This document shows, one piece after another, positions 10,262 to 35,848 of a DNA stretch of 64,000 nt; the first letter of the stretch is position 1; each line of letters opens with the position of its first letter. Under the pieces are notes generated by a model, which saw only the letters and a list, made by a program, of their open reading frames with translations, did not search any database and was not told the origin of the DNA. Made by a program: the position numbers and the translations under genes. The DNA comes from Enterococcus diestrammenae (GTDB lineage Bacteria; Bacillota; Bacilli; Lactobacillales; Enterococcaceae), in the NCBI RefSeq assembly GCF_009933255.1, contig NZ_MAEI01000007.1:11141-75140 (forward strand), in the 5' to 3' direction.

Positions 10262-10434
10262 AAATAATTCTAACCAACTATAAACGTTGTCAGATTTATG
10301 TTTAGTTCCTGTTTCTACGTGTCCGATTTTGCCATTTGCTCGCTACTCTCGTTTGCTATAACACTCCGCAGGCGTTAATTCGGATACAACGAATCCTACA
10401 TATCTACGTTTCTGTCTCAGTAGAAGCTCGTAGA
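10262..10434 (-). ncRNA. Candidate omega/re-RNA at the right end of the IS
   Basis: About 170 nt without a gene downstream of tnpB. TnpB proteins use a guide RNA made from the 3' end of tnpB through the element's right end, with the guide coming from the flanking DNA (established for IS200/605 and IS607 TnpBs). A TCTACG/CGTAGA stem is visible at about 10406-10437. If the RNA exists its guide would be read from the sequence just upstream of hflX. This rests on position and family only. Confidence 0.4.
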
Positions 10435-24353: not shown

Positions 24354-25040
24354 TTACGAATTCCAAAGACCTTCTTCTCGCAAACTGACGTAACTTTGGT
24401 GGCCGATAATCAAATGGTCCAAGACTTCAATACCCATCAGTTCCCCGCATTCCTTCATCCGGCGGGTAAATAAAAGATCATTCTCGCTAGGTGTCGGATT
24501 GCCTGATGGATGATTATGACAAATGATCAACCGAGCCGCTGCTACCCGCACAGCCCCGCGAAAAATCTCCCGGGGATGAGCGACACTTTGATTGAGGGAG
24601 CCAATAAACAGCGTTTCCTTTTTGACGATTTCATTTTTGGTGTTCAAATACAAGCAGACCAAATGCTCTTGTTGGTAATCTTTCATGTCTTCCATCAAAG
24701 TAAAGGCCAGGTCCACACTCGTCCGCACCTTGCCAATTTTTGGCTGTAAAGCTTTTTGAATCCGTCCTCCTAACTCAATCATCGCCACCAGCTCCAAGGC
24801 TTTCACCTGGCCCACACCAGAAATCTGTTGGAGTTCGTCGCGGCTGGCCAATTTCAAGTCAAACAAGGAGGGAAAGACCGACAACACCCTGCCGGCTAAC
24901 TCCATCACATTCATCTGCGCAGTCCCGGTACGCAATAAAATTGCTAAAAGTTCTTGATCCGACAACGCCTGAGGGCCATATTCTAACAAGCGCTCCCGGG
25001 GTTGACTGCTTTGGGGAATTCGCTGAAACCCATTTCTCAT
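24354..25040 (-). CDS. radC: RadC family (UPF0758) JAMM-domain protein
   Basis: The biological role of RadC is unresolved; the old DNA repair assignment was withdrawn. The 229-residue product has an N-terminal helix-hairpin-helix region (LQQISGVGQVKALEL, about 70-84) and a C-terminal MPN/JAMM metalloprotease-like fold with HNHPSGNPTPSEND (about 177-190). The ATG at 25040 has AAGGGAG eight nt upstream. That Shine-Dalgarno is part of the last helix of a structured intergenic RNA (25045-25163), which suggests control of translation or termination. Downstream of a HAD phosphatase gene. Confidence 0.93.
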   Translation of the reverse strand: MRNGFQRIPQSSQPRERLLEYGPQALSDQELLAILLRTGTAQMNVMELAGRVLSVFPSLFDLKLASRDELQQISGVGQVKALELVAMIELGGRIQKALQPKIGKVRTSVDLAFTLMEDMKDYQQEHLVCLYLNTKNEIVKKETLFIGSLNQSVAHPREIFRGAVRVAAARLIICHNHPSGNPTPSENDLLFTRRMKECGELMGIEVLDHLIIGHQSYVSLREEGLWNS

Positions 25041-25044
25041 CAAA

Positions 25045-25163
25045 AAAACTCCCTTCCGTCGATTTCCTGATCAAGGTCATCTCGCAGCCAACCTTTTATC
25101 AGGAAATCCGTCTTTTGGTAAAGGCCAATCACCTTATCAAAAGAACATACGCAAGGGAGTTTT
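25045..25163 (-). ncRNA. Three-way-junction RNA between the HAD gene and radC
   Basis: On the minus strand P1 pairs AAAACTCCCTT (25153-25163) with AAGGGAGTTTT (25045-25055), a perfect 11-bp closing helix followed by further T. P3 pairs GATTTCCTGAT with ATCAGGAAATC (25098-25108 and 25061-25071), also perfect, with an inner AAGGT/ACCTT. P2 lies between (about 25110-25146: CTTTTG..CAAAAG and AAGG/CCTT). The structure begins 3 nt after the HAD stop and ends 4 nt before the radC ATG. Its 3' arm includes the radC ribosome binding site and a terminator-like T run. Function unknown. Confidence 0.65.
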
Positions 25164-25166
25164 CAC

Positions 25167-25826
25167 TTAACTTTGTAACCAGCGTAAGACTTGGTGTAAA
25201 TCCGGCAGGACAGCTAGCGTCTTTTGGGCCAAAGCCTCATCTGGTCCTAGCAAATCCGGCACCATGATTACGGGTATGCCAGCTGCCACGGCGGCATTGA
25301 CGCCGTGTTGGGAATCTTCTAGTACCAATAGCGTTTCTTTGGGCAACTGAAGTTTCTCAGCGGCTAATAAAAAAATATCCGGATTGGGTTTTGCGCGAGG
25401 CACATCTTCAGCTGAGACGATTAATGGGAAGGCATCCGTGAGTCCGGCCTGAGCTAGCAACCATTCAATCGCTGGCCGATTATTGCTGGAGGCCAAAATT
25501 TTAGGTACCTGTTGGGCATCGAGATAGGCCAACAGCTCTTTTACCCCTGGTTTGAGTTGGACTAATCCGGCCGCAAATAGTTTTTCTGAATTGGCATAAG
25601 ACAAGCGCACAAACTCAGTGATTGTCTCCACCCCATAGTCTTCGTCGTAATCTTCGTGGACTTTGACTACAAATTCTTCATCACTGATGCCCAAGTAGCG
25701 TAAGTAATCCGACATGTCATACGTGATGCCCAGGGTATCTGCGGCTTGTTGGTTGCCTTGGTAGACAAGGGCTTCCGTATCGAAAATCAAGCCATCCATA
25801 TCAAAAATAAGTCCTTTAGTCGTCAT
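25167..25826 (-). CDS. HAD hydrolase, beta-phosphoglucomutase-like subfamily
   Basis: Predicted sugar or nucleotide phosphate phosphatase (or phosphomutase) of HAD subfamily IA. The 219-residue product has motif I FDMDGLIFDTE (about 8-18), motif II LASSNN (about 115), a lysine in RAKPNPDIF and motif III LVLEDSQHG. The substrate is unknown. The start at 25826 has GGAGG eight nt upstream. It overlaps the end of folC by 11 nt, so it is translated with folC, and radC follows after a structured RNA spacer. Confidence 0.87.
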   Translation of the reverse strand: MTTKGLIFDMDGLIFDTEALVYQGNQQAADTLGITYDMSDYLRYLGISDEEFVVKVHEDYDEDYGVETITEFVRLSYANSEKLFAAGLVQLKPGVKELLAYLDAQQVPKILASSNNRPAIEWLLAQAGLTDAFPLIVSAEDVPRAKPNPDIFLLAAEKLQLPKETLLVLEDSQHGVNAAVAAGIPVIMVPDLLGPDEALAQKTLAVLPDLHQVLRWLQS

Positions 25827-27141
25827 ACGCCAATCCTCCCATCTCCAATAACAAGCTTCGTACATCGGAAACAAAATACAACGAACCGGTTATTAATAAT
25901 AAGTCTTCATTGGTCATTTTTTCCAAAATTTCCCCTAGCCCAAACTGCCACATGGAAACGATTGTCACCCGTTTGTCACTGGTGTTTTCGTAATTGTCAT
26001 CCAGCTTGATGGCTTTTGGATAATCAAAGGTCGTCACATAGAGGCGGGCATTGGGAATTTCCAATAGTTGAGCCAGCATGCCATCAACATTTTTAGTGGA
26101 TAAGGCGGAAAATAAGACATGAATCCGGTATTCTTTGAACTCGTTTTTCATGGTTTCCACCAAGCGCCCCATCGCATGGGGATTATGGGCCCCGTCCAAG
26201 ATGATCAGTGGCTCTTGGCTCACTCGTTCCATCCGGGCTGGCCAACGAACATTTCGCAGACCATTGCGAATCGACATCAGACTGATGGGCAGGCCTTTGA
26301 TTTGACAGTAACAATGGTACATTTGAATCGCCAGACCGGCATTTTCAGGTTGATGGCGCCCCAACAGCGAAGTTTTTAAATTCACCAGCTTTCCCTGATC
26401 ATTGAGAAATTCAAACACTTCCCCCCATTGTGGGTCCGGATGTTTGTAAAGCACGCGATAATCTTGATTGAAACGATACATTGGGGCGCCTTTTTTATCC
26501 GCCTCTTGTTGGATAATCGCGATGGCATTGCTTGGGATATTCCCAGTCACCACCGGAACCCCTGGTTTGATGATGCCAGCTTTTTGGAAAGCAATCTCCT
26601 CCAAGGTATCTCCCAAAATATCCATGTGATCCATGCCAATCGTAGTAATCCCACATAATAAAGGTTTCACTACGTTGGTAGAATCCAATAAGCCCCCTAG
26701 CCCGACTTCAATAATCGCTACATCGACCTTTTTCTCTAAAAAATAATCCAGCGCCATGGCAGTCAAGGTTTCAAACTCAGTGATGCCAGCCACATCAGGC
26801 TTTTCATCCAACTGGTCGACCAAGGGCTGATATTTGTTCACCAAAGTCACTAGGTCTTCATCGGCAATATGCTGGCCGTCGATGGCAATGCGTTCATTGA
26901 AAGATTCGATGAAAGGGGAGGTAAACGTTCCGACAGTCAGGCCAGCGTCCTCCAAAATAGCTGCCAAATAGCTAACGGTGGAGCCTTTGCCATTGGTACC
27001 AGCAATATGAATCGTCGGGACCTGCTCTTCTGGATGATCGACTAGCGCTAATAATGCCTCTACGCGGTCCAACCCTGGCCGTGAACCAAAAGGTAAGCGA
27101 CTATGAATCCATGCAATTGCTTCTTTTCCTGTTTTTACCAT
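25816..27141 (-). CDS. folC: Folylpolyglutamate/dihydrofolate synthase
   Basis: Adds glutamate to folates and may also form dihydrofolate from dihydropteroate. The 441-residue product has the P-loop HIAGTNGKGSTVSY (about 43-56), the omega loop TSPFIESFNERI, EVGLGGLLDSTNV and the C-terminal DGAHNPHAM motif. The ATG at 27141 has GAGGTG 6 nt upstream; the in-frame GTG three codons earlier overlaps that site. In many Firmicutes folC follows valS directly. Here a PadR operon and an OpuA/BusR block lie between and folC has its own likely promoter (extended -10 TGA-TATAAT, about 27205-27213). Confidence 0.94.
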   Translation of the reverse strand: MVKTGKEAIAWIHSRLPFGSRPGLDRVEALLALVDHPEEQVPTIHIAGTNGKGSTVSYLAAILEDAGLTVGTFTSPFIESFNERIAIDGQHIADEDLVTLVNKYQPLVDQLDEKPDVAGITEFETLTAMALDYFLEKKVDVAIIEVGLGGLLDSTNVVKPLLCGITTIGMDHMDILGDTLEEIAFQKAGIIKPGVPVVTGNIPSNAIAIIQQEADKKGAPMYRFNQDYRVLYKHPDPQWGEVFEFLNDQGKLVNLKTSLLGRHQPENAGLAIQMYHCYCQIKGLPISLMSIRNGLRNVRWPARMERVSQEPLIILDGAHNPHAMGRLVETMKNEFKEYRIHVLFSALSTKNVDGMLAQLLEIPNARLYVTTFDYPKAIKLDDNYENTSDKRVTIVSMWQFGLGEILEKMTNEDLLLITGSLYFVSDVRSLLLEMGGLAYDD

Positions 27142-27204
27142 TTTATGCACCTCGTTTTAGTCCGTCTTCTCAAAACAAGACAGCCATTTCCCTAAAGCAT
27201 CCTC

Positions 27205-35592: not shown

Positions 35593-35845
35593 AAAAAAGC
35601 CCTAGCATGATTTCTCACACTAGGGCGCAATTTACGCGGTACCACCTAATTTGCAACCAACATCTCTGGCTGCCTCTTTGACGTGCAATAACGGGCACGA
35701 CTCGTCTCAGCCTACCAATCGACTTGCGATCTTCAGTGAGAAACTCCCAAGCTACCTTCACCCTGCCACTGGAGAAATCTTACAGCCAAGGATCTCTTCT
35801 CTAGGCCAGTGTTTGTCGGGTTACTCCTCTTGTTCTATGTCTTAA
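35593..35845 (-). promoter_or_regulatory. T-box riboswitch of valS
   Basis: The minus strand carries the T-box core AGGTGGTACCGCG (35636-35648). It is followed by a terminator, GCCCTAG..CTAGGGC with six T (35593-35626). Stem I has an AGAGAAGAGA-type kink-turn region upstream. A GTA triplet in GAAGGTAGC (near 35755) is a candidate valine specifier. Uncharged tRNA-Val should pair with the core to prevent termination and switch valS on. Confidence 0.88.
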
Positions 35846-35848
35846 GTC

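Follow-up and report, generated by a model that had tools for sequence, protein, structure and literature searches.

A Predicted Competence-Type Promoter Within the Shine-Dalgarno-Enclosing Hairpin of radC in Enterococcus diestrammenae and Its Relatives

Results

In Enterococcus diestrammenae, radC is probably transcribed from a late-competence promoter of its own. This promoter would lie within the 5′ arm of a terminator-like hairpin that would lock the radC Shine-Dalgarno sequence (SD) and insulate radC. The hairpin lies in a 64,000-nucleotide stretch of contig NZ_MAEI01000007.1, which was analyzed as a whole and is called the window here. In the proposed mechanism, the 5′ strand of the hairpin would act as the promoter, its box TTGCGTATGTTC being recognized by a SigH/ComX-type sigma factor, and the 3′ strand carries the radC SD, followed by a run of T. 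Read-through RNA from the upstream folC-HAD genes would contain both arms, fold and likely terminate at the T-run, and in any such RNA that escaped termination the SD would be locked by the helix. RNA from the nested promoter would start past the 5′ arm, lack the closing helix and be translatable. radC would be insulated from its neighbors and made mainly in competence, and the inner helices of the element would be a species-group addition inside the loop.

The HAD-radC spacer and its predicted fold

All three genes of the locus lie on the minus strand. The radC gene (24354..25040; NCBIfam NF000642, 260.3 bits; Pfam PF04002) encodes a RadC family protein and starts with ATG at 25040, an in-frame TTG at 25043-25041 being a possible alternative start. 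Upstream lies a gene for a HAD-family hydrolase (25167..25826; Pfam PF13419), the presumed source of read-through RNA, and behind it a Mur ligase gene (25816..27150; Pfam PF08245 and PF02875), which we take to be folC-like, a name carried over from an earlier sequence-only reading of this DNA. Because the HAD and folC-like genes overlap by 11 bases, transcription through folC-HAD into radC is expected. A promoter scan placed no sigma-70-like site within the spacer, the nearest minus-strand site upstream being at 25925-25896; the scan yielded 6 sites compared to 8.5 in shuffled sequences, so it is weak evidence in both directions.

The spacer between the HAD gene and radC measures 126 bases. 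On the gene strand it was predicted to fold into a three-way junction of −62.6 kcal/mol (z = −5.9), an energy reached by none of 200 dinucleotide shuffles (mean −40.1, sd 3.8). The three helices that had been proposed to fill this gap were recovered in the minus-strand fold and as inverted repeats: 25045-25059 with 25149-25163 (15 nt, 93%), 25061-25074 with 25095-25108 (14 nt, 93%) and 25111-25121 with 25134-25144 (11 nt, 91%). The closing helix consists of 12 pairs, a mismatch and 3 further pairs, with its 5′ arm at 25149..25164 and its 3′ arm at 25045..25059; the inner helix spans 25061..25108 (arms 25095-25108 and 25061-25074), and the third, imperfect helix spans 25111..25144 (arms 25134-25144 and 25111-25121). 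The sequence confirmed that the radC SD, AAGGGAG (25055-25049), is contained in the 3′ strand of the closing helix, and that it is followed by seven T (25048-25042) and then by the ATG (25040-25038), so that the T7 run forms both a terminator-like U-tract and the spacer between SD and start. The plus strand of the spacer gave an even larger z-score of −7.1. Inverted repeats can make the opposite strand fold well too, and folding energy alone is therefore no proof of RNA function, a point that the comparative data have to carry.

No Rfam family scored above threshold in the spacer, and the loci of nine relatives yielded solely a cspA element, located elsewhere in one locus; a known RNA family was rejected, and the Rfam search proposed earlier for the leader thus ended without a match at threshold. 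A search of the genome with the spacer returned 16 matches, of which the significant one was the spacer itself, and a stringent pattern of the whole element had no match in the same genome. A repeat or MITE was rejected, since the spacer is single-copy in its genome. Elsewhere on the minus strand of the window lie a RAGATH-18 RNA (10306-10372, 70.1 bits) and a T-box leader (35618-35846, 110 bits).

The closing helix is conserved and covaries across Enterococcaceae

Among the named genomes scanned with RadC, a single close relative came up, Enterococcus sp. CU9D; identity did not exceed 44% at the other 79 loci. Among 105 genomes of the family, 103 had a RadC match; G048 and G054 were left out because of incomplete matches, which gave 101 leaders. 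From these, G053 (no CGTA, TTTTACGAAATT in its place) and G043 and G035 (start misassigned, the box being visible in both) were excluded, and 98 leaders were analyzed.

The closing helix was present in 88 of the 98 leaders. When each 5′ arm was paired with its own 3′ arm, the mean duplex energy was −17.3 kcal/mol, compared to −13.5 kcal/mol (sd 0.24) when partners were dealt among the 98 genomes; the best of 5000 such permutations reached −14.4 kcal/mol, and shuffled 3′ arms paired with a mean of −6.5 kcal/mol. In all 11 helix-bearing genera, own arms paired better than arms from other genera. An alignment was built from 81 of the 88 helix leaders, those with a distance of 33-40 nt, identical rows being used once. 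There, 87.3% of the cells were paired, against 43.9-58.6% with the partner slid, and 60 two-sided changes were counted compared to 21.9 ± 3.6 in shuffles. These changes fell in 8 pairs (6.0 expected; 8 was reached in 16 of 500 shuffles), and RNAalifold retained 7 pairs, with compensatory changes in 6. The alignment contains helix-bearing rows by choice, which makes the permutation on 98 genomes, free of such selection, the fairer test; the two results agree. The spacer comparison called for by the sequence-only reading thus turned out in favor of a conserved helix with covarying arms. The comparative data indicate that the closing helix is old, common to the relatives and under selection.

A competence-type box lies in the 5′ arm

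On its 5′ side the closing helix overlaps a competence-type box, TTGCGTATGTTC (25143..25154, minus strand), with a CGTA core at 25151-25148 as the predicted −10-like element. The consensus of the box in the 5′ arm of the radC leaders is TTTGCGTAYYTT, and across the family the box reads CTCCTTTGCGTAYCTT. CGTA was found in 100 of the 101 radC leaders, 97 by rule and G000, G030 and G081 by eye; because CGTA was used to pick leaders for the alignment, its invariance there holds by construction, and 100/101 is the free count. The motif is retained in the 10 leaders that have no helix, and it stays in place in aligned rows in which the pairing partners of its C, G and T are lost (22, 26 and 11 of 81 rows, respectively).

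The radC box is common to comGA, coiA and comC. CGTA, sought within 60 nt upstream, was found 24 to 41 nt before the starts of these genes in 30 of 30 cases from 10 genomes of the genus, which are related and hence represent fewer than 30 independent cases. As chance levels, shuffling gave 4.1 of 30, tiles drawn from these loci gave 172 of 1981, and open reading frames (ORFs) in the window gave 1 of 48. A 14-nt pattern of the box, with at most two mismatches, matched the strain's own genome 112 + 126 times compared to 79 + 84 times for a backwards control. As a stand-alone marker this pattern was rejected as unspecific, most of the 30 places saved not being competence genes; it served as a lead to comC, coiA and a comEA-like gene, and the claim rests on the com-gene counts and their controls. 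The sequence-only reading had set against itself any transcription of radC from within the element; comparison now predicts such a promoter, in the 5′ arm.

The start of S. mutans comE is reported to map directly downstream of the cin-box (PMC4497675). By analogy, a distance of 9-13 nt after the C of CGTA was assumed, which would place the radC transcription start zone at 25138..25142 on the minus strand.

Several other boxes were observed. In the strain's own genome (contig C53, near 70286), a box GCGTATTTTA that also fits lies directly before a gene that we take to be comEA-like, the frame of which is split into two overlapping frames; the split may be a genuine frameshift or a fault of the assembly, so the strain may have a decayed competence system. 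In another locus of the same genome, TTTTGCGTACTTTC lies 194 nt upstream of what is presumably an rpsF-like gene; it may be a competence promoter serving the downstream gene assumed to be ssb. In the comC leader of G005, CTCTCC precedes the box and GGAGAG lies at the SD, by eye the same nested layout. In the comEA-like locus, in locus L176 and in the helix-less leaders of G052, G055 and G058-G060, the box often follows immediately on the T-run of a terminator-like hairpin farther upstream, and promoter and terminator tail look shared there.

A candidate sigma factor

Four region-2 sigma hits were found in the genome. One of them (C14:1356-1553) is SigH-like, matching SigH models with 37.1 of 212 bits and 33.8 of 294.8, far below the cut-offs; it had no PDB match. 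It lies behind reading frames resembling what we take to be an rRNA methyltransferase and a YacP-type protein. The sigH gene of Bacillus subtilis sits in such a neighborhood. Judged from its sequence and this sigH-like neighborhood, the reading frame is a candidate competence sigma factor.

SD opening, T-run and transcription termination

Since the box overlaps the 5′ arm, the predicted cost of opening the SD was compared between read-through RNA and RNA started at +11, which is 11 nt after the C of CGTA; this start placement is itself a prediction. In the window the cost was 15.2 kcal/mol for read-through RNA versus 4.8 kcal/mol for the shortened RNA. The medians were 12.2 versus 3.3 kcal/mol in the 88 helix leaders and 4.7 versus 3.6 kcal/mol in the 10 helix-less leaders. 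The mean unpaired probability of the SD over the 98 leaders rose from 0.06 to 0.48, exceeding 0.5 in the shortened RNA of only 40. In the window it was 0.02 in the shortened and 0.00 in the read-through RNA, so the SD is predicted to be mostly paired in both, its partner in the shortened RNA lying in the early coding region.

A T-run between SD and start was present in 86 of the 88 leaders with the helix. Of the 10 without it, 1 had such a run, as did 2 of 30 competence genes other than radC. The measure records U-richness, not termination, and the Fisher test of helix against T-run ignores kinship, no genus being mixed. In the window, the closing stem runs directly into the T7. A terminator pattern scan, the loop limit of which was 8 nt, did not list the radC hairpin. 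With a conserved, covarying helix around the SD and a T-run behind it, the earlier impression of a hidden ribosome binding site and a terminator-like stem was supported, in that the element resembles both an SD lock and an intrinsic terminator.

Separate terminator-like hairpins of −11.4 to −19.2 kcal/mol were found beside the box in 5 of the 10 helix-less leaders. Among the remaining five, G094 had a weak hairpin (−2.9 kcal/mol) and four had none in the stretch searched; one of these four, G067, has a terminator-like stretch farther upstream, by eye. In another of the four, G061, the radC leader contains a different nested hairpin, with its 3′ arm TGGGTCTTTT in the first radC codons, again by eye. 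A convincing replacement terminator was absent from the helix-less leaders of G066, G094 and G095. A separate terminator candidate was seen in 2 of the 88 helix leaders; by eye, both of these lie where the HAD coding region ends. With terminator-like hairpins present in half of the helix-less leaders, helix plus T-run on the one hand and a separate terminator on the other look like alternative ways to insulate radC.

The threshold used for pairing, −12 kcal/mol, was also reached by 7/10 coiA, 2/10 comC and 1/10 comGA leaders and by 6 of the 48 window ORFs, 2 of the 48 having at least four T after the helix. The pairing measure is therefore not specific on its own.

The hairpin in other families of Lactobacillales

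Sixty radC leaders from seven other families of the order were picked from the best-scoring matches listed, and so are not a random sample. The pairing threshold was reached in 36 of these 60, 30 of which also had the T-run. By family, the picked leaders that reached it numbered 13/16 (f8), 10/12 (f2), 7/12 (f4), 3/11 (f6), 2/2 (f9), 1/6 (f3) and 0/1 (f7). In the family coded f3, probably streptococci, [AT]CGAAT was present in all six picked leaders. The location of the box in the 5′ arm was checked by eye, in part of the picked leaders from these families.

These counts bear on the strongest rival explanation, that the hairpin is a mere terminator of the folC-HAD operon packed against radC, with SD hiding a by-product without regulatory weight. 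The T-run of nearly all helix leaders and the separate hairpins in half of the helix-less ones speak for it. Against it, a terminator could do without arms made of SD and promoter, yet pairing with the SD region recurs in those 36 of the 60 picked leaders from other families. We regard this explanation as unlikely; it departs from the nested, insulating promoter proposed here only on whether the SD lock matters.

The inner helices as a loop expansion

A single hairpin with some 12 pairs is the usual form of the element in the family. Start codons lie 27-40 nt from CGTA in 94 of the 98 leaders (median 36.5); the exceptions were distances of 50 nt, 64 nt, 103 nt in the sister species G004 and 108 nt in the window. 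The loop of G004 is thus expanded too, with two hairpins, and the loop sequences of the window and G004, neither common to both, gave no convincing alignment. Only the closing helix is conserved among the leaders compared, and the three-way junction appears to be a local enlargement of the loop in the window and its sister species.

The earlier alternative, an inserted palindrome supplying the ribosome binding site by chance, fits this picture in part: it fails for the closing helix, given the age of that helix and its presence across relatives, while the inner part may have arisen in this way. A broader form of the idea, in which the whole element acts as a DNA palindrome, either the operator of a regulator or the remnant of a small inserted element, draws on the folding of the plus strand and on the inner palindrome, which among the leaders analyzed is limited to the window lineage. 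Against it, G-U states are common among the variant pairs (17, 22 and 27 cells in single columns, for example), and such changes keep RNA pairing but break DNA palindromy, which favors RNA; the genome holds no second copy, and the T-run accompanies the helix on the gene strand. A DNA-level palindrome is accordingly a very unlikely account of the element. Least probable of all is a sensing role for the three-way junction, in a leader that would respond to a ligand or a protein as a riboswitch, as an attenuator or by autogenous control; the sequence-only reading had favored a regulatory leader of this kind. Despite the very stable fold in the window and the two hairpins in the expanded loop of G004, a conserved junction or aptamer core was sought and its inner part was absent from the 94 of 98 leaders with at most 40 nt between CGTA and start, which have no room for an aptamer, the two expanded loops do not correspond in sequence, Rfam gave no match, and inner helices that are a loop expansion make an aptamer-type junction unlikely.

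Discussion

The arrangement proposed for radC, a promoter inside a hairpin that hides the SD, follows a logic known from phage T4. Early and middle transcripts of T4-type late genes conceal the ribosome binding site in a fold for which those from the late promoter are too short (PMC2988022). The late promoter is reported to lie in or beside the SD-hiding hairpin in I-TevI, segB and mobE of Aeh1, and also in soc and e. A stable hairpin that hides the SD in upstream transcripts is likewise predicted for radC, with covarying arms, and transcripts from the nested promoter, if it starts where predicted, would lack the 5′ arm. Unlike the T4 genes with their phage late promoters, radC is a bacterial chromosomal gene; its box is of the competence type, and its T-run points to termination as well.

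A second parallel is found in competence itself. In streptococci, radC is a core member of the SigX regulon (PMC5069739), and comGA expression requires the ComX box (cin-box), TACGAATA, in those hosts in which this was tested (PMC13101493). The enterococcal genes resemble the reported SigX/ComX regulon in carrying an NCGWA box shortly upstream of late competence genes, and differ from it in the box, that of enterococcal radC being TTTGCGTAYYTT. In Lactobacillus sakei, a non-sporulating relative, a SigH-like factor switches on late com operons (PMC3364868); the main text of that paper contains no occurrence of radC, and its available parts describe no leader hairpin of the kind found here. In Staphylococcus aureus, translation of sigH is limited by a 13-bp inverted repeat located where the gene starts (PMC3486894). 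Both sigH and radC are competence-related, and for sigH no promoter nested in the repeat is reported in the available parts of that paper.

Our search of the open-access literature, which covered titles and the beginnings of abstracts, found no report of an enterococcal competence box, of a radC leader hairpin or of a competence-gene version of the T4 logic. The transposase gene of Tn10/IS10, which is protected from outside transcripts, offers a further comparison, as its start region is folded up in read-through RNA and stays untranslated; unlike radC, it belongs to a mobile element and has no competence promoter.

Taken more widely, we lean toward the view that across much of Lactobacillales a strand of about 12 nt would serve both as a competence-sigma promoter and as a terminating or silencing lock, so that radC could be expressed only from its own promoter. 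Such an element would be a bacterial counterpart of the T4 hairpins with an added layer of termination, and the GCGTAYYTT box would define the enterococcal late-competence regulon.

With this reading, a stem-loop becomes a testable rule for which enterococcal genes make up the late-competence regulon, and by which box. The reading also suggests that radC would be silent outside competence. Promoter and lock on one strand would be a compact natural design for insulating a gene from its neighbors.
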